Below, piece after piece: positions 5,552-27,442 of a stretch of DNA of 64,000 nucleotides. Source of the DNA: Priestia megaterium (GTDB lineage: Bacteria > Bacillota > Bacilli > Bacillales > Bacillaceae_H). Location: contig NZ_CP023317.1 of NCBI RefSeq assembly GCF_009497655.1, forward strand, positions 3,625,501 through 3,689,500. The letters are read 5' to 3'. Below the pieces are notes generated by a model. That model saw only the letters and a list, made by a program, of their open reading frames with translations, did not search any database and had not been told where the DNA came from. Position 1 is the first letter of the stretch; each line of letters starts with the position of its first letter. Both the position numbers and the translations under genes were made by a program.

Positions 5552-6305
5552 AGCCTTCACCGCCTAATGCGCCTTGAATGTTCATAATTCGTTTGAAAAA
5601 TTCTTGTCTCGTTTGTTCGCCTTTAAACAGCTCCGTGTAAATTTGTCCGTCTTTAATAAACAGCACGCGGCTGCAGTAGCTTGAAGCCAGCGGATCATGC
5701 GTCACCATAATAATGGTGGCACGGTCTTCTTGATTTAACTGGGACATCTTTTCAAGCAGGCTTGAAGCGGCCTTGGAATCAAGAGCTCCGGTAGGTTCAT
5801 CGGCGAAAATAACGGCTGGATTCGTAATAATTGCTCTCGCTGCTGCAACGCGCTGTTTTTGTCCACCAGAAATCTCATACGGGTACTTACCCGCCAGCTC
5901 ATAGATGCCTAGTCGCGTTGCGGTGTCTTTCAGCTTCGCTTCCATTTCTTTCTTAGACATTTTTGTAACCGTAAGCGGCAGAAGAATATTTTCTTTTACT
6001 GTTAACGTATCCAGTAAATTATAATCTTGAAAAATAAATCCTAGATGATTGCGTCTGAAAGCAGACAGCTTCTTATCTTTCATGAGCGCTACGTTTTCTC
6101 CTTGAATCCATACCTCGCCATCTGTGGGACGGTCAATCGTTGAAAGAATGTTCATCAGCGTCGTTTTTCCCGCTCCAGATGGTCCCATAATACCGACAAA
6201 CTCTCCTTCTTCGATTGTAAAATCAATTCCTTGTAGCGCTTCGTATACGTTTCCTCTTGATCCAAACGTTTTGGTTACATTTTTCCCTTCAAGGACAATA
6301 CTCAT
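5538..6305 (-). CDS. BceA/YxdL-type ABC transporter ATP-binding protein, 255 aa
   Basis: ATPase of the peptide-sensing transporter. The Walker A motif GPSGAGKTT, signature SGGQKQR, Walker [13 protein letters not shown] and switch His (MVTHD) are all intact. The ATG at 6305 is preceded by AGGAGG, and its ATGA overlaps the stop of the upstream YxeA-like gene. The family works as two ATPases on one large permease and either removes peptide antibiotics from their lipid target or reports flux to the BceS-like kinase. Confidence 0.92.
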
Positions 6306-6658
6306 TTCCCTTCCTCCTTTCGTTCTTTTGTAGGCCACACGCTTTTCACCCGCTGCGGCAGCTCATTTTTTGTTATAATGTCATATTTCCGAACTTCGTT
6401 ACCTCGAACAAAAAGGTCAATAACCGTTCCTTCTTTTAACTGTTTAATCGTCGTAAACGTTTGAAAAGTTGTTTGTCCTTTTTCGTTTATTACTGAAATG
6501 GTATATTGAACTCGTCCATAGTCGTCCACTTTTTTTGCTTCTTTTGGGATGATCCCGTATTGATGCTCCGTTGCGGCGTTTTGATAAATCTTTACTCCTC
6601 CTATACATGCTCCCACAATAAAAATCAGGGCTAAAAGGCTAATCCACTTTCGCTTCAT
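6302..6658 (-). CDS. YxeA-family (DUF1093) membrane-anchored or secreted protein, 118 aa
   Basis: Small protein with one N-terminal hydrophobic segment ([21 protein letters not shown]) followed by an extracytoplasmic domain of the YxeA/DUF1093 type ('[28 protein letters not shown]' region; [13 protein letters not shown]). In B. subtilis yxeA lies at the end of the yxdJKLM cluster; here it sits between kinase and ATPase genes. GGAGG lies 8 bases before the ATG. It overlaps the ATPase gene by 4 bp. Its function is unknown, but the conserved linkage suggests a role in the peptide-response module. Confidence 0.75.
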
Positions 6659-6745
6659 GTACGTTCCCTCCTTGTGTATAGCTCTATCTTACTTCGTAAC
6701 AAGGAAAGATTCGTTTGAAGCAGATGACAATCTCGGCTTTCAACC

Positions 6746-7780
6746 TTACATTTTTGAAAGGTTATCAAAAGAATTCGGTTTGTAGAAGGTCAAAATTACC
6801 GTGGTTCCTTCGTGTAAAAGTGAATGTACCTCTATTCGATGGCCAAGAGCATCTGTAATTTTTTTTGAAAAATACAGCCCTAGCCCCGTAGCTCCTTTCG
6901 ATTTTCTTCCGACATTTCCTGTAAATCCTTTTTCAAATATGCGCGGAAGGTCTTGTGGTGGAATGCCCTCCCCTTGGTCAACGATAAATAACTTCACATA
7001 CTTCGGCGTTTCTTCACTAAAAAAAGAAAGCTTTCCTTCTAGAGGGCTATATTTAATTGCATTGGATAACACTTGCTTCACAACAAACTGCATCCACTTT
7101 GGGTCAGTGTGCACTAACGTATCTAGATTCTTTTCATCAATATGCAGTCTTTTCTCAATACACCATTTCGAGAAATACGCAACGTTTGGAAAAACAAGTT
7201 CGCTTAGCGACACTGCCTGCACCTGGTAATCTTTTTCTAAGTGACGCAGACGTGCGGCATATAAATTCTGATCTACTAACCCATCAATTTTCATCCATTC
7301 ATCTTCAATATCCTTAAGCCAAGGCCATTTATAAAGCTCTGTACGACGAGCGTTAATAAGCAGCTTCATAGCAGTAAGCGGCGTTTTGATTTCATGAACC
7401 CACGTCGTTATATATTCCTGCTGTTCTCGCTGCTGTACGTGAAGAGCGTGAGTTTGTCTGCGATAGACACGATCTATACGCTGCAGCAGACTCAGCATGT
7501 CTTCATCTGCTTTCGTTCGCACGTATGAATGCATTTCTTGTAAATCGTACGCGTCATTCTGCAGCATTAAACTTAATCTTTTTATAAATCTTCTTTCTTT
7601 TACTCCTCTCCATAAAAGAAACAGAATTAGCATACACAGCGTTAAAAGATTCAAGTACCAAAACGAAGTAGACGATACCTTAATATCATACTCGAGAAGC
7701 AGCAGAGCATCGATTACACTCAGCCATAGAAGAACGAATAGAATCCAGCTTAGCCTTTCTCTTAAAAAACTTTTCCACAT
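6746..7780 (-). CDS. BceS-like intramembrane-sensing histidine kinase, 344 aa
   Basis: Two close transmembrane helices at the N-terminus (about 11-30 and 40-58) with almost no extracellular loop, typical of BceS/YxdK kinases, which sense through their ABC transporter. The phospho-acceptor His is in WVHEIKTPLTAMKLL; the N box SNAIKYSP, G1 box DQGEGIPP and G2 box GLGLYFSKK follow. It starts one base after the response-regulator stop. It ends before a gap of ~90 bp to the YxeA-like gene; that gap probably holds the target promoter of the regulator. Confidence 0.9.
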   Translation of the reverse strand: MWKSFLRERLSWILFVLLWLSVIDALLLLEYDIKVSSTSFWYLNLLTLCMLILFLLWRGVKERRFIKRLSLMLQNDAYDLQEMHSYVRTKADEDMLSLLQRIDRVYRRQTHALHVQQREQQEYITTWVHEIKTPLTAMKLLINARRTELYKWPWLKDIEDEWMKIDGLVDQNLYAARLRHLEKDYQVQAVSLSELVFPNVAYFSKWCIEKRLHIDEKNLDTLVHTDPKWMQFVVKQVLSNAIKYSPLEGKLSFFSEETPKYVKLFIVDQGEGIPPQDLPRIFEKGFTGNVGRKSKGATGLGLYFSKKITDALGHRIEVHSLLHEGTTVILTFYKPNSFDNLSKM

Positions 7781-20256: not shown

Positions 20257-21678
20257 TCAGTCACGCTGAAGATACGATAGAAATGCAAAAATATGATCCT
20301 GAATAATGAGTTCTGCCGTAGCAGAATGGCTCTTTAATGATAAGTGTTCAGAATATCGAAATCTGTTAAATTTATTTACATCAACATGGTGAACGGCCTG
20401 CACATGGAAACCCCCTACTATGGCTTTTACTTGGGCAAAAGGCGGTACAGCAAGAGATTCGGGCTCAATTTTCTCGAGGCACTCTCTGCTTATGGCATGA
20501 GGAACAGCTGTCATGGAGCTCATTAATAAATCTTTTCTTCCTATTGTCTCGTTCAACACGTACTTCCACCCCTGGACCACATGCGTGAGCTTTTCTTCAT
20601 CTTCACATATGTTTAAAGCTACATCGACACCGCTCGCTACCGCTGCAGCAAACGGATACAACTCCTGAGCTGAAAGAACAAAGTCCCCGTCTATGAAGAG
20701 AAGAATATCTCCCGTTGCTGCAAGTGCTCCTGCAGCTCTTCCGCAATCATGCCCTAACCGCTCATCGTAAACAATAGTTTTAACACCCTGTTCTTTGGCA
20801 TACTTCTCCGACTGATCCGTAGAGCCGTTAATCACAACAATAATTTCTAACGGTTCAAGTTTTCTTGCTTCTGCAATCACTTGTTTGATTGTTCCTTCTT
20901 CGTTGCAAACCGGAACAATAACAGACAGCTGTTTGCCTCCATAAAAAGAAGATAATTTCCCCCAGCCGTGCTCCACAACTGGAAGAGGCTGTGCGAGCAT
21001 ATCCACTCGCCTTTTACGATTTGACGCAAGCGTATAATATGTTTGAAGAAGCTGCTGGTAGGATTGAATTCGTTCTCTGCTACGCAGCGGCCGATCAAAC
21101 GGACGAAAGCTTCCCTTTCCCTGCGTTTCGATCGTAATATGCGAGCTTACACGATACTGTGTTAAGAACGTCACAAATAAAGAAAGAGGCGGCAACTCCC
21201 AGTGGTTCTTTAATACGCTTACTAGCACACCGTAAGGCGCTTTTAAACAAGCGTTGGCACGATGAGGCTTTCCAAGTGCATGATGCAGAACCGTACTCCA
21301 CGTCAGCTCGCTGCGGTTAAAAGCATTCATCTTTGTTTTTTCCCACTTGTTTAGCACCACATCGCTATGTTCAAATAACAGCGGCTGAACAAAACGCTCA
21401 AGCTCGGAAGCCGAAAGAATAATATCGCCGTCTACAAATAAGACGGCATCTCCTTTAGCAGCCTTTGCCCCTTCCATTCTCGCTTCATGTGGAAAAAGGC
21501 GTTTTTCTACTACTTTTACCGTACATCCCTCTTCTTTCGCTATTTTAACTGAAGCATCGGTACAGCCGTTTGCAACTACGATAATCTCAAGCACGTTCAC
21601 TTTTTTAATTTGTTTAAGCACGTTTTTTAACATTTCTTCTTCATTGTAAACGGGCAGAACGACAGAAAGAGTTTTCAT
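20257..21678 (-). CDS. Double-domain family 2 glycosyltransferase, 473 aa
   Basis: Two GT2 modules in one chain. The first opens with LSVVLPVYNEEEMLKNV and has the nucleotide/metal motif FVDGDI; the second opens with LSVIVPVCNEEGTIKQV and has FIDGDF. Both carry the NGCTD/NGSTD loop. The second half also has TAVPHAI and a C-terminal HHVDVNKFNRFR block, shared with the related gene at 22939; the first half has lost these. There is no signal or membrane helix. The start at 21678 has AGGGGGGA 5 bases upstream. It is the last gene of the DUF2642/GT2 operon, behind an internal hairpin. Confidence 0.82.
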   Translation of the reverse strand: MKTLSVVLPVYNEEEMLKNVLKQIKKVNVLEIIVVANGCTDASVKIAKEEGCTVKVVEKRLFPHEARMEGAKAAKGDAVLFVDGDIILSASELERFVQPLLFEHSDVVLNKWEKTKMNAFNRSELTWSTVLHHALGKPHRANACLKAPYGVLVSVLKNHWELPPLSLFVTFLTQYRVSSHITIETQGKGSFRPFDRPLRSRERIQSYQQLLQTYYTLASNRKRRVDMLAQPLPVVEHGWGKLSSFYGGKQLSVIVPVCNEEGTIKQVIAEARKLEPLEIIVVINGSTDQSEKYAKEQGVKTIVYDERLGHDCGRAAGALAATGDILLFIDGDFVLSAQELYPFAAAVASGVDVALNICEDEEKLTHVVQGWKYVLNETIGRKDLLMSSMTAVPHAISRECLEKIEPESLAVPPFAQVKAIVGGFHVQAVHHVDVNKFNRFRYSEHLSLKSHSATAELIIQDHIFAFLSYLQRD

Positions 21679-21691
21679 TGATATCCCCCCT

Positions 21692-21723
21692 AAAAAAAGA
21701 ACCACTGAACAATTCAGCGGTTT
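21692..21723 (-). terminator. Internal terminator/attenuator within the GT2 operon
   Basis: On the minus strand AACCGCTGAA/TTCAGTGGTT (one mismatch, 3-base loop) is followed by CTTTTTTTA. It starts directly after the dehydrogenase stop and ends in the ribosome site of the last GT2 gene, so it may reduce expression of that gene. Confidence 0.7.
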
Positions 21724-22946
21724 CATTCATTTAAAATACCTCTTGTATCCACAACTTTTTTTGCGTATTTTACAATTGACCAATCGATTTGACTGTGATC
21801 GGTTAATACAAGTACAATATCGCTTTTTTCAACTTCTTCTTTTGTCAGCGGTACAGAAAAATACGTTTGCTTATTTAATATAGCGGAGTCAATATAAGGG
21901 TCATGATACGTCAGCTCATATCCTTTTGCTAAAAGACCTTCACATACCGTCAGCGCCGGCGATTCACGCATATCATTTACATCTTTTTTATACGCCATGC
22001 CTACAACAAACACTCGTTTCTCATTTGCTGCCAGCTGCTTTTCAACACGTCTAATCACTTTATTTGGCATTTCTTCATTAATATGATGAGCGGCTTCAAT
22101 AAGTTCGCTCGTTAAGCCATTTTGCTTTAGTTTCCATAGGAAATAAAGCGGATCAACGGGTATGCAGTGTCCTCCAATTCCAGGACCTGGATAATAAGGA
22201 GTGAATCCAAATGGCTTAGTAGATGCAGCTTGTAAGACCTCATAAAAGTCTATTCCTAATTCCTCACACAGCTCGTTTGTTTCGTTCACCAACGAAATAT
22301 TGACCAGGCGCTGAATGTTTTCAAACAGTTTGCACATTTCTGCTACTTTTGGAGAAGAAACAGGCACCACCTGTTGAAAAATACTTTCATAAAACGTCTG
22401 CACGTGATGAAGGCAGTCTTTGCTGTAGCCGCTAATTACTTTTGGAATATGCTCAATATCGTATGATTTGTTTGCCGGATCAACTCGTTCTGGAGAATAA
22501 GCTAGATAAAAATCTTTACCTGCCTGTAAGTTGGAATCTTTCAAAATAGGCAACACGACTTCTTCAAGCGTGCCTGGGTAAGTAGAGCTTTCATAAATAA
22601 CGGTTTGCCCTTTTACCATCTGTTCTTTTAAGAATGCAGATGCGCTAATGACTGGTCCTAGATCGGGGTTATGATTTTCTGTAATAGGAGTTGGCACGGT
22701 CACAACTACATAATCGCATGCTTGAAATGCAGAGATACCTTTTTGTAACTCATATGCTTCAAAATTTTTCTCGCTTTGAATCACATCACTATGCACATCT
22801 GGAATATAGCTTTTCCCTTGTTTTAGCGCCTCAATTTTTCGTGCGTCAATATCAAGACCAACGACGCTATAGTTTTTCTTTGCAAATAAAAGAGCAAGCG
22901 GCAATCCAACATAGCCAAGACCAATAACAGCAACTTTTTTATTCAT
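21723..22946 (-). CDS. UDP-sugar 6-dehydrogenase (UDP-glucose/UDP-HexNAc type), 407 aa
   Basis: N-terminal Rossmann fold ([18 protein letters not shown], GxGxxG), central helices with the Lys-containing [25 protein letters not shown] segment, the catalytic Cys loop [14 protein letters not shown], and a C-terminal domain ([18 protein letters not shown]). The enzyme oxidises C6 of a UDP-sugar to a uronic acid with two NAD. The segment [17 protein letters not shown] resembles the UDP-N-acetylhexosamine dehydrogenases more than UgdA, but the substrate is not certain. It overlaps the upstream GT2 gene by 8 bp and probably supplies uronate to the flanking glycosyltransferases. Confidence 0.88.
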
Positions 22947-24471
22947 TCTTCAACACCTCAAACAAGATATCATGTCTTCGTATGTCCGGAAGAAACTCGC
23001 CTCTTTCACTTGTTTGGCTAATATAGTATGCAAGGGCCTCAACATAATCTCCTAGAATGCGCTGCGTTGATGCCGCCAAACCTTTGACTTTCATGTGCTC
23101 CTTTCGAATCCGGTTCGTTCGCGCCACATCAACAAAATGAACGGGCTGAACCATAAAGCCGTACATAATACTTTTTAATTGAAATAAAGGTGGAATAATA
23201 AGAGATTCGTAGCCAACTTTCTCCATTACATCCCGTTTAATTGCATGCGGAATCGCCGTCGTTGTATTGATTGTCAAATCGGGACGTTTGCAAATGATAT
23301 TAAGAAAATATTTCGCCGCACTTACAGAGTGAATAGGATGCACTTCATCCAGCAGACACTCTAAATTATTAAGCGCTACATCAATTCCTTGATCAGCTGC
23401 TTCTAGATACGGACGTAAATTTTCTGCAGAAATGACGATATCCCCATCTACGAACAAGCAAACTTCACCGCTGCTGTACATGGCACCGATTGCTCGAGGT
23501 ACATTATGTCCAAGCCGCTGCTTGTAATGAAGAACAGTAGCACCCGCTTCAATTGCTCGCTTAACCGTCACTTCATCGGCTCCGTTAGCAACCACGATGA
23601 TTTCTTCCACTCCTGCTTTTTTCACTTCTTGGATCACGCTTGCAATCGTTTCTTTTTCTTCACCTACTGGAATAACGGCACTGTACTTAACGCCTGCTTT
23701 CCGCTTCACGCTTGGTGTATAAGCGGAAACAACTTCTCGGTTTCGATTGCCGTCTGTTAGTCCGCCTCTTATTCCTTTTTCTTCAATAAGATGAGCTAAC
23801 GCTTTAATGTGATCTCCAATGATATAGTTAGTGGAAATAGGAAAAGGGGAATTGGTAGGAATGGTTTTATGAGTGTTTCGAATCTTGTTTGTATAAATAA
23901 CGTCTGAAGAACACGGTGCAACAATTGACATTCCTTTTAAAAGAGCAATCGTATGAGCGAGGGGTGGATGAGCTAAGTTTTCGTATCCGATTTTAGCTGC
24001 TGATGTTTTTTTGATGGCATGAGGAATAGCTGTTAAGGCTTGAACAGATAAATCTTCACGCTGTAAGCACAAGTTCAGCATATATTTGGCAACAGAAACA
24101 GGATGAGGACGCACCTTTCGTTTCATAATCCATGTTAGATTATTTAAAGCGATATCATGACCGGTTTCTATAGCTTGAGTATATTTCATCAGCTCCTCAT
24201 GAGAAACCGCTATATCTCCGTCCAAAAAAAGCAAAATATCTCCTTTTGCTTTTTTAGCCCCAATGGCTCTTCCAATATTAATACCTAGAGCTTCTTCATA
24301 GTAAATGACGCGGCACCCTGCACCCTCGGCTATTGCCTTAGTTGCATCACTAGATCCATTTACTACGACAATAATTTCTAACGGCTTTATTTTTTGAGCT
24401 TCTTTAAGCACAGGTAATAATGAATCTTCTTCGTTACAGACTGGAATAATGACTGATACTTTCAATCTCAC
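22939..24471 (-). CDS. Double-domain family 2 glycosyltransferase, 510 aa
   Basis: Two GT2 modules: [17 protein letters not shown] with FLDGDI, and [17 protein letters not shown] with FVDGDI. Each is followed by the same unusual block TAIPHAIK...IGYENL/VGYESL...PPL and a [13 protein letters not shown]-type tail, so the halves arose by internal duplication. The GTG start at 24471 overlaps the TGA stop of the upstream small gene (GTGA), and the stop overlaps the dehydrogenase start. It is cytosolic. The acceptor is unknown. Confidence 0.82.
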
Positions 24472-24668
24472 TCAACTCCGCTGAAAATTCGAACATACGT
24501 GATGGCTACTAGTGGGATGGTTACGTCCGTGGGCTCACCATATGAGCTTGATGTACGCACAACAGCCGCTGCGTCCGTAACAGCAAGCAGTGTTCCATTA
24601 ATAACGTCGATAGCTGTGATGATTTGCACAAATGAACCCACATTTTCTCTTAATGCATCTTGAAACAT
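24468..24668 (-). CDS. Small Sm-like beta-barrel protein (DUF2642-like), 66 aa
   Basis: The core reads ENVGSFVQIITAIDVINGTLLAVTDAAAVVRT...VTIPLVAITYVRIF, a five-strand pattern like DUF2642 (V.G..V.I.T..G.L..V..D.V.L...IPL..I..I). It has no signal or membrane segment. AAAGGAG precedes the ATG. It overlaps the following GT2 gene by 4 bp, indicating translational coupling. Several DUF2642 proteins in bacilli are linked to spores, but none has a clear biochemical role. Confidence 0.6.
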   Translation of the reverse strand: MFQDALRENVGSFVQIITAIDVINGTLLAVTDAAAVVRTSSSYGEPTDVTIPLVAITYVRIFSGVE

Positions 24669-24686
24669 ACTTTTCTCTCCTTTCGT

Positions 24687-25034
24687 TTAAGCGCTTTGAA
24701 TAGTAACAATGCTTGTAAATGGAAGTAATACTGTTGATGTTGGAGACTCTACTAATTCTAAATAATCATCTCCTACAAATATCACAACACCTTCTAGTGG
24801 ACCAGCCGTTGTTTCAATCACAACTTCTTTTCCAATATACTGCTCGGCAATTTCTTTAAAAGGTGATTCTTGAGATTCTTTAATAATATTTATTACGTAT
24901 TCTTTGAACGTGTCAGAATAAACGACTTCTTCTACCGCTTTCTTTGTGTTTTCCTGAATAAATTCAGCAAATCGATTTGAAAACAACAGGTGTTTTATCT
25001 TTTCTACATAGCGACGGTAACAACAAAAAAACAT
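24687..25034 (-). CDS. Protein with C-terminal DUF2642/Sm-like domain, 115 aa
   Basis: The N-terminal ~60 residues are helical and charged (FAEFIQENTKKAVEEVVYSDTF). The C-terminal half (YIGKEVVIETTAGPLEGVVI, then FVGDDYLELVE, LLPFTSIVTIQSA) has the same beta pattern as the next gene, with which it is probably paralogous. A Cys pair (FFCCYR) sits at the N-terminus. AAGGAGG precedes the ATG at 25034. It is the first gene of the five-gene operon, 18 bp before the next. Function is unknown. Confidence 0.6.
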   Translation of the reverse strand: MFFCCYRRYVEKIKHLLFSNRFAEFIQENTKKAVEEVVYSDTFKEYVINIIKESQESPFKEIAEQYIGKEVVIETTAGPLEGVVIFVGDDYLELVESPTSTVLLPFTSIVTIQSA

Positions 25035-25239
25035 AAATTTTGTTCCTCCTTTTTATACGGTTCTCCCTTCAAATTACCTACAACCATTGACGTAACTTAA
25101 GAGATTACTTTACCAATATATACAAGCTTTATCATAAAGGTGACAGAACTTTTATCACATTGTTATACAAATACGCACATGACCAGCCCGTTTTGCATAG
25201 GATTATTCCCTACTTCCTCCTACCTATTGAAACCCAAAC

Positions 25240-25275
25240 AAAAAAAGACAAAGCTCCTAAGCTTTGTCTTTTCTT
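25240..25275 (-). terminator. Terminator of the NlpC/P60 gene
   Basis: Stem AAAAGACAAAGC/GCTTTGTCTTTT with a 6-base loop; on the minus strand it ends in TTTTTTTGTTTGG. Confidence 0.88.
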
Positions 25276-25967: not shown

Positions 25968-26152
25968 TTCGTTTCCTCCCCGAATCATGTTTTAAGCACC
26001 GTACAACCATACCATCTGCGGATAACAATTCAATTAATAGAAGATAACAATTTGATAACAATCTTTTTAAACAGCCTCAACTCTTGGACGTAAAACGCCG
26101 AAATATAAGAAGAAGAGAAAAACAACTATTCTAGCAAATAAAGGTGATAAAC

Positions 26153-27442
26153 ATGAATTGGTTTAAACGAAACAACGTGCACGCCGAAGCCGCGGCTGTC
26201 GAATCCATCACTGTAAAGCTTCATGTATCGGATCCGATGATAAAAAAGCAGATTAACATGATTTCCTTAACAGCAGAGGATCTCGAACGAATTGCCAGAT
26301 TTCAAGTTCACGCGCTGAACGCCATCGAAGAAATCGTGAATGATTTTTATAAAGCTATTGGCGAACAGGCTCATTTGGTTGCGATTATCGAAAAGCACAG
26401 CAGCGTCCATGCATTAAAACAAACGTTAAAACAGCACATCTTAGAAATGTTTGATGGACAAATAGACGACGCTTTTGTGGTAAAACGTCAAAAAATTTCC
26501 AAGATGCACGTTAAAATTGGACTTGAGCCAAACTGGTATTTGTGCGCATTCCAAAATTTATTTACGTCGCTTCTTTCAGTATGTGAACGTACGATGGAAT
26601 CAAAAGAAGAATGTCTAGCTTTTATCGCAAGTATGACAAAACTTATTAGTCTAGAACAGCAAATTGTGTTAAAAGCCTATGAGCTTGAATATGACGAGCA
26701 GCGCGCTGGACTTCAGACTCAAAAAGAGAAAATTCAGCTAGAAATCTCTCGTACATCATCTATCCTTTCTTCGTTATCTGAAGAAACGAAGAAATTTATG
26801 AATCAAATGCACAGTCAGTCTTCTGACGTCGTTTCTTATGCAAACAAAAGCTCTGAACTAGCAGAAGTCATTGAGAAGGAATCCGTTACGAGTCAAGCAA
26901 AATTAAAAGAAGAACAAAACATGCTTGGAAGCATACAAAAAAATACGTCGCTCATTCAAAACAAAATGAAAACGCTCGAACATACATCACAGCAAATTCA
27001 TCAAATTGTTTCCATTGTTACTTCTATTGCGGAGCAAACGAATTTATTGGCATTAAACGCTTCGATTGAGTCTGCTCGAGCAGGTGAGCATGGAAAAGGA
27101 TTTGCAGTGGTGGCACAGGAAGTACGGAAGCTTGCAGAAGAAACGAAGAAATCGATTTCTAATATTTCTACTTTTATCGGAGACATTCAAAAACAAATCG
27201 AAAGCGTTTCGGCGTTAGGTGGAGAAGTCGCTACATTAACAAAAGATACAGCTGACAATATGAACAACATTACTTCTTTTTTCACGAACGTCCTTAGCAT
27301 AACAACCGAGAACAAACAGCAAACCGTTCTAACAAAAAAAGAGCTTGATAAAATCGCTGACGCAATGAAGCAGCTATCTCTGCGGATTGAGAAGATGGCC
27401 CATTCCTCAGAAGAACTTGAACGGTTAACTGAAAAAAGTTGA
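26153..27442 (+). CDS. hemAT: HemAT-type heme aerotaxis transducer, 429 aa
   Basis: An N-terminal globin-coupled sensor domain (about 1-180) with proximal His119 in [14 protein letters not shown] is followed by a coiled coil and a soluble MCP signalling domain with the hairpin tip ([28 protein letters not shown] split around residues 295-325). It has no membrane segment. Length and domain order match B. subtilis HemAT, which binds O2 on heme and signals through CheA/CheW. The ATG at 26153 (AAAGGTG upstream) is preferred over GTG 26144. It is monocistronic, with a convergent terminator shared with scoC. Confidence 0.9.

Follow-up and report, generated by a model that had tools for sequence, protein, structure and literature searches.

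A probable spore-surface glycan operon of Priestia megaterium that joins a pair of Sm-like proteins to two double GT2 glycosyltransferases

Operons for the sugars of the spore surface have been described in Bacillus subtilis, whose crust glycan genes sps, yfnHGFED, ytdA-ytcABC and cgeAB-cgeCDE include the family 2 glycosyltransferase (GT2) SpsA, as set out in PMC7439481. Among spore coat proteins, GerQ (YwdL) forms filaments (8zra; PMC11405398). In Priestia megaterium QM B1551, plasmid-cured strains without an exosporium all lack plasmid pBM600, which carries other genes including bxpB, and a role of pBM500 in the exosporium could not be excluded by the authors (PMC4674009). Here, we describe a five-gene operon of P. 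megaterium in a window of 64,000 nucleotides, i.e., the whole stretch of DNA analyzed, which is part of contig C1 of a three-contig, 5.24-Mb Priestia genome. In order of transcription, the operon encodes two small Sm-like proteins (Sm1 and Sm2), a double GT2 glycosyltransferase (GTA), a nucleotide-sugar dehydrogenase (UGD) and a second double GT2 protein (GTB). We consider it reasonably probable that this operon is a mother-cell module that makes an acidic glycan and places it on the outer spore layers, i.e., coat or exosporium. Spore-surface sugar operons are already known; the cassette that combines an Sm pair with double GT2 enzymes may be new. The crust operons of B. subtilis are likened to it by description only. 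A literature search found no paper on a module of Sm-like protein, spore coat and glycosyltransferase among the best 10 of 175 records, judged by title, and a search on exosporium and uronic acid in megaterium found nothing relevant.

The five genes are as follows.
24687..25034, minus strand: Sm1, 115 residues, with a helical N-terminal half and a predicted C-terminal Sm-like (DUF2642-type) barrel at residues ~57-115
24468..24668, minus strand: Sm2, a stand-alone protein of 66 residues and partner of Sm1, Sm-like by homology to the Sm1 domain
22939..24471, minus strand: GTA, a double GT2 glycosyltransferase of 510 residues with NG, DGD, PHA, PP and NxxR in both modules (PF00535, motif table and alignment)
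21723..22946, minus strand: UGD, a nucleotide-sugar 6-dehydrogenase of 407 residues with Cap5O as its closest solved relative (TIGR03026, phmmer)
20257..21678, minus strand: GTB, a double GT2 protein of 473 residues from its likely start, or of 489 residues from an upstream ATG at 21726

The original prediction, made from the window alone, had placed these genes on one strand with most of them overlapping by 4-8 bp. All five are present on the minus strand at 20257-25034. The overlaps hold for Sm2/GTA (4 bp) and GTA/UGD (8 bp); Sm1 and Sm2 lie 18 bp apart, and the 4-bp overlap of UGD and GTB holds only if GTB starts at ATG 21726.

The Sm pair and its glycosyltransferase neighbors

Both small proteins appear to be Sm-like barrels, as had been proposed, Sm1 from fold prediction and Sm2 from homology. 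The predicted structure of Sm1 consists of an N-terminal helical part and a five-stranded bent barrel of the Sm/Hfq type. Sm2 had no Pfam match of its own in the protein scan; profile comparison relates it to the Sm1 domain (hhalign E 1.3e-13), through which it is likely Sm-like. The suggested DUF2642 membership (PF10842) was borderline for Sm1, at 22.0 bits in the protein scan and 22.7 bits, marked as passing, in the genome scan around a curated cut-off of 22.7, and was not recovered for Sm2 itself; 8 of 20 aligned Sm2 proteins matched the family at E ≤ 1. PHROGs gave nothing for Sm1 or Sm2, and a literature search found no mention of DUF2642. YuzC is presumably a DUF2642 protein; papers retrieved for this name were, going by title, mostly chance matches.

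The filament subunit of GerQ has a fold similar to the Sm1 barrel and aligns with the Sm1 model, with a root-mean-square deviation larger than that of most Hfq structures compared. The GerQ family was not among the Pfam matches of Sm1 at E ≤ 0.1, even though the folds align. We know of no glycosyltransferase partner of GerQ. Because PMC11405398 does not use the words Hfq, Sm-like or barrel, the relation between GerQ and the Sm fold is put forward by our analysis.

The fold would also suit RNA-binding proteins of the Hfq kind that regulate the glycan genes. We regard such a function of Sm1 and Sm2 as very improbable: likeness of fold does not prove function; in sequence, Sm1 is related only marginally to the Sm proteins of the PDB (E 0.37 and 0.021), and the 16 weak PDB matches to the whole Sm1 profile (E 0.05-0.94) include no Sm protein. 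Moreover, relatives of Sm1 have long and variable N-terminal extensions, Thr-rich at locus L049, coiled-coil-like at L195 and with a short Gly/Pro-rich stretch at L198.

Two sets of loci tie the pair to glycosyltransferase genes. In the first, the Sm2 profile gave 29 matches in 21 of 199 genomes of the order, from which we selected 17 tandem pairs, spread over 14 genomes, window included and with two genomes each from three genera; the Priestia operon copies in G008, G010, G012 and G015 and the single-gene matches in G072, G055 and G094 were left out. Without correction for shared descent, 14 of the 17 pairs have a GT2 place no more than 8 kb away, where 0.51 would be expected, and 12 have one at 2 kb or less, where 0.15 would be expected. 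For the second set, we took a single locus from each of 20 genomes among the 45 that are Sm2-positive, choosing places with higher scores (the similarly scoring G555, G446, G496, G523 and G372 are omitted); this set was read with home-made glycosyltransferase profiles and no background. All 20 loci have tandem pairs; over 9.5-16.5 kb per locus, a GT2 gene or a gene of glycosyltransferase family 4 (GT4) is present in 15, and a double GT2 protein that matches GTA or GTB over its full length follows Sm2 directly in eight. At three pair loci (L203, L204 and L240), a nucleotide-sugar dehydrogenase stands together with a DegT-type aminotransferase and a Gfo/Idh dehydrogenase, the latter two recognized by eye at L240 and the first by search. 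This kind of gene set is used by diacetamido-uronic acid pathways (WbpA/B/E). A protein of 426-439 residues whose second half contains a GT2 domain (Pfam, 5/6) also recurs beside the pair, in convergent orientation at L049, L194 and L200, divergent at L196 and L197, and upstream at L199.

These neighborhoods bear on a further explanation, in which the Sm pair is a cytoplasmic, nonstructural adaptor that holds or stabilizes the double GT2 enzymes and is no part of the spore surface. The inactive subunit of two-component glycosyltransferases plays such a role, and the overlap of Sm2 with GTA as well as the double GT2 gene directly after the pair in the window, at L155, at L247 and at seven loci of family f68 would fit it, as would the rings that Sm folds commonly form. 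We nevertheless think it unlikely, because at many loci the pair is accompanied by GT2 or GT4 proteins of other types in various orientations, which makes a fixed enzyme partner doubtful, and because the variable N-terminal extensions of Sm1 fit a surface protein.

Links to spores

Several lines of evidence, all of them by homology, support the link to spores, which the original prediction had offered as a guess. First, paralogous pairs have spore-surface neighbors. On the 76.5-kb contig C3 of the same genome, a second Sm pair is accompanied by a convergent GT2 gene, and two CotX-type genes are found 2-3 kb from it. The Sm2 protein of this contig was matched in 26 Priestia plasmid records at 44-100% identity, including pBM600 of QM B1551. 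Like the operon, pBM600 has a DUF2642 protein in tandem with a partner of 72 residues and a neighboring GT2 gene, among many sugar genes, and two genes annotated "spore coat protein" lie ~2.5-3.5 kb beyond its Sm pair; it differs in that the adjoining GT2 gene is convergent and of another type and in that the 32 kb listed include no nucleotide-sugar dehydrogenase. In plasmids, a protein search with GTA gave only short GT2 matches and none in a Priestia plasmid at E ≤ 1e-5, and a DNA search with the whole operon gave no match. The plasmid-like contig C3 (L209, L049 and L210) also contains a collagen-like frame (GPQGPQGP), several GT2/GT4 genes and, like pBM600, UDP-N-acetylglucosamine 2-epimerase-like and DUF1796-like genes (by eye).

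Second, Coat_X genes lie near the Sm pair at L194 and L200, and a BMQ_0737, NTTRR-F1 or collagen-like gene was found at 12 of 24 distant GTA-related loci compared to 0 of 59 control loci, a weak control because it consists mostly of GT2 loci of non-spore-formers. The BMQ_0737 clusters (L047, L048, L156, L161 and L162) resemble the operon in having GTA-related GT2, UGD-like and epimerase-like genes, here beside a morphogenetic coat protein, and differ from it in gene order; the small Sm-like protein of L047 is single, with weak matches to LSM (E 0.0085) and SM-ATX (E 0.0054). Third, among 299 genomes of the class, Sm2 is present in 45 and SpoIVA in 210, and all 45 are within the 210 (P 2.5e-8, uncorrected for descent).

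A conserved element may bear on the timing of expression.
25114..25142, minus strand: promoter-like conserved element CACC-N16-TATATATTG upstream of Sm1

All 12 family members have the core TGTATATATTR without a change, preceded at 15-16 bases by CAC or ACC (by eye), and CACC-N16-TATATATTR has a single match in the genome. The element resembles a SigK promoter. Scans of 20 upstream regions with SigK, SigE and SigA consensus sequences were overall no better than shuffles (p ≤ 0.1 in four regions for SigK, including the contig C3 pair with no mismatch, and in none for SigE or SigA), and thus we claim only the conservation of the element.

The enzymes and the conservation of the gene order

PF00535 matches two stretches each in GTA (116 bits) and GTB (147.8 bits; cut-off, 23.3). 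NG and DxD are motifs of GT2 glycosyltransferases, and NG and DGD are kept in all four modules of the window. The NCBIfam glycosyltransferase equivalogs, TIGR04283, GpgS, MftF, AglJ and others, scored far below their cut-offs (best, 98.6 versus 182 bits), and no characterized family of fixed role came up for the tails. Among solved structures, a profile search found GpgS and other GT2 proteins at E ~1e-12, in most cases aligned just to the part of one module that binds the nucleotide, and PHROGs gave only GtrB-like, other GT2-type or unnamed matches. The closest named relative among the loci fetched is the GTA of Priestia aryabhattai B8W22 (95% identical), which suggests a Priestia from the megaterium group. 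A fourth match in the same genome, C1:1950257 (L006), was set aside because it covers only residues 5-96 of GTA.

A TAIPHAI..PP..NxxR tail had been ascribed to each GT2 half. This wording was wrong: three of the four window modules have the tail, and GTB module 1 has CLKAPYGVL instead. In a motif table of 18 proteins, i.e., nine GTA proteins (one truncated, without module 1) and nine GTB proteins, both GTA modules and GTB module 2 have NG, DxD, PHA, PP and NxxR, apart from deviations at single positions in a number of rows; at L052, L055 and L057, GTB module 2 has an altered PP and retains NG, DxD and PHA. GTB module 1 is without PHA in 9/9 rows and without NxxR in 8/9 (exception, LNRFR at L054), and it has lost NG in six and DxD in four of the nine. 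In a module tree, the four module types form separate groups, weakly supported for GTA module 1 (80/51), and branch lengths are 0.42-3.56 for GTB module 1 (the window/aryabhattai pair excepted) versus 0.01-0.77 for the other three types. Table and tree together argue for three full modules and a decaying one rather than four alike; by these signs, it is GTB module 1 that decays in the relatives.

The gene between the GT2 genes encodes a nucleotide-sugar dehydrogenase, as predicted, with 437.4 bits for TIGR03026 (subfamily cut-off, 189.8). UGD scored below the equivalog cut-offs of WecC (223.5/459 bits), TviB (221.7/592) and TuaD (141.7/700). Because the equivalogs for UDP (uridine diphosphate)-N-acetylmannosamine dehydrogenase and TviB, all below cut-off, outscore TuaD and because the nearest solved relative is Cap5O (3ojl; phmmer E 2.5e-60), an N-acetylhexosamine seems a little likelier as the sugar of its substrate than the glucose of UDP-glucose. 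GTA and UGD are fused in one reading frame at the loci of Fictibacillus gelatini (L055; 921 residues) and Cytobacillus purgationiresistens (L057; 927 residues), in each case followed by GTB.

Conservation of the five-gene order was borne out in part. Of the 16 genomes that represent the family, 13 have GTA and 12 have Sm1, Sm2, GTA and GTB together (GTB in two pieces in G006). In eight of these 12 operons, UGD lies between GTA and GTB; in the other four, it was not found. Two further families have the four-gene core: G141 (L155) has Sm1-Sm2-GTA-UGD, ~0.9 kb with an epimerase-like beginning and then GTB, and G336 (L247) has Sm1-Sm2-GTA-UGD, an epimerase-like gene (by eye) and GTB, with a GTA that is 49% identical. 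The operon is not a fixed five-gene unit, given the four operons without UGD and the Fictibacillus and Cytobacillus loci at which no Sm pair was found; as far as these gene orders tell, the dehydrogenase is not part of the conserved core. The genes flanking the operon vary between family lineages. In G013, UGD and GTB are kept and GTA is truncated; locus L056 (P. megaterium CH447_14T) has the identical contig coordinates, and both L044 and L056 represent decayed versions of the operon.

Directly after GTB, L055 (12289-12552) and L057 (12447-12686 and 12793-13089) encode related small proteins of 79-98 residues with QNCFDICFKVVI, which may replace the Sm pair; that of L055 has no NCBIfam match and in Pfam only a weak one to COG2_N (E 0.009, below cut-off). 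Locus L157 (G184:C2) has several tandem GTA/GTB-like genes with no Sm pair listed. Just upstream of the operon at L247, positions 5576-7234 hold a gene recognized by eye as recombinase-like (552 residues, CGYVRVSTEEQ), which recalls sporulation genes split by excisable elements.

Two hairpins lie within and at the edge of the unit.
21700..21722, minus strand: hairpin followed by a T run, resembling an intrinsic terminator, between UGD and GTB
25243..25272, no strand assigned (listed as plus by the hairpin scan): palindromic terminator-like hairpin between an NlpC/P60 gene and Sm1, at the upstream edge of the unit

The true start of GTB is probably ATG 21678, 48 bp downstream of the start of the longest frame: it is preceded by AGGGGGG, and of the seven more distant GTB frames in the alignment, six start at this level and that of L044 starts three residues earlier. 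The window and four close species share the hairpin and T run ahead of this ATG; this hairpin was not seen at seven other junctions inspected, and at L042, a hairpin of a different kind with a T run separates GTA from GTB. Because of the hairpin and T run, GTB may be expressed less than the preceding genes in the window and the close-species group. Farther upstream than the NlpC/P60 gene, window positions 26144-27442 encode a chemoreceptor-like protein (by eye), which is split into two frames in P. aryabhattai (L035).

A proposed mechanism and its meaning

The substrate, the timing, the location and the part of the Sm pair that we propose would be as follows. UGD would make a UDP-uronate by oxidizing UDP-glucose or, a little more probably, a UDP-N-acetylhexosamine. 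GTA would add sugars through its two competent-looking GT2 modules, and the fusion of UGD to GTA in two genera suggests that the uronate is among them. Module 2 of GTB would attach another residue; module 1, which is decaying, would have a binding or structural role. Sm1 and Sm2, which have no catalytic domain, would form a hetero-oligomeric pair that sits in the growing spore surface and, likened to polymerizing GerQ, serves as scaffold or acceptor of the glycan or as tether of the enzymes. Most simply, this would be a module for a spore-surface glycan in which the Sm pair is the protein side and the enzyme side varies; one version of the latter is the double GT2 proteins, whether or not they are accompanied by a dehydrogenase that makes a uronate. 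As the original prediction supposed, the product may be a uronic-acid-containing glycan or glycoprotein modification rather than a secreted polysaccharide. A bolder form of this proposal is that, across spore-forming Bacilli, the pair assembles within the outer layers of the spore into a hetero-oligomeric ring or filament, as a fold relative of GerQ that is glycosylated by the neighboring double GT2 enzymes, or templates this glycosylation, and carries an amino-uronic glycan; we hold this as tentative and rather doubtful.

Several observations weigh against a spore-surface glycan module. Three of the 17 pairs of the first set have no GT2 gene within 8 kb, and five of the 20 loci of the second set have no glycosyltransferase gene; in a pattern search, no PHA motif was found in seven double GT2 proteins of f68. 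Single DUF2642-type genes lie away from sugar genes, e.g., at L241 and L242, and the Sm1 profile matches in 35 of 199 genomes versus 21 of 199 for the Sm2 profile (most Sm1 matches uninspected); thus, the barrel alone is no marker of the module. No Sm pair was found at the decayed G013/CH447_14T locus, and two Sm profiles found none at L055 and L057. The window element as a SigK match has p = 0.36 against shuffles. Finally, in 14 operon-type loci scanned over 16-19 kb each, no coat gene was recognized, so that the spore link of the chromosomal operon is by homology. As to L242 (G012:C6, 6379-6555), its lone Sm-like gene encodes 58 residues, scores over the DUF2642 cut-off and has phage-like surroundings (by eye).

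The 14 loci without a recognized coat gene, together with the uronate-type UGD, would be expected of a vegetative, teichuronic-acid-like glycan of the cell envelope with no relation to spores. We judge this improbable in view of the spore-surface neighbors of the paralogues and of SpoIVA in all 45 Sm2-positive genomes (again uncorrected for descent), and because the equivalog cut-offs of both TuaD and TuaG were missed. A spore-surface module remains the reading that we prefer.

Adhesion, hydrophobicity and recognition of spores depend on their outermost layers. Many enzymes and carrier proteins of outer spore glycans are still to be assigned (see PMC7439481). The cassette described here can be traced over several families and, via the paralogous pair, to the exosporium plasmid of QM B1551. 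It gives DUF2642-type proteins a testable role and provides a short list of candidate genes. If the bolder form of our proposal is true, Sm-like proteins would have a second role beyond RNA biology.

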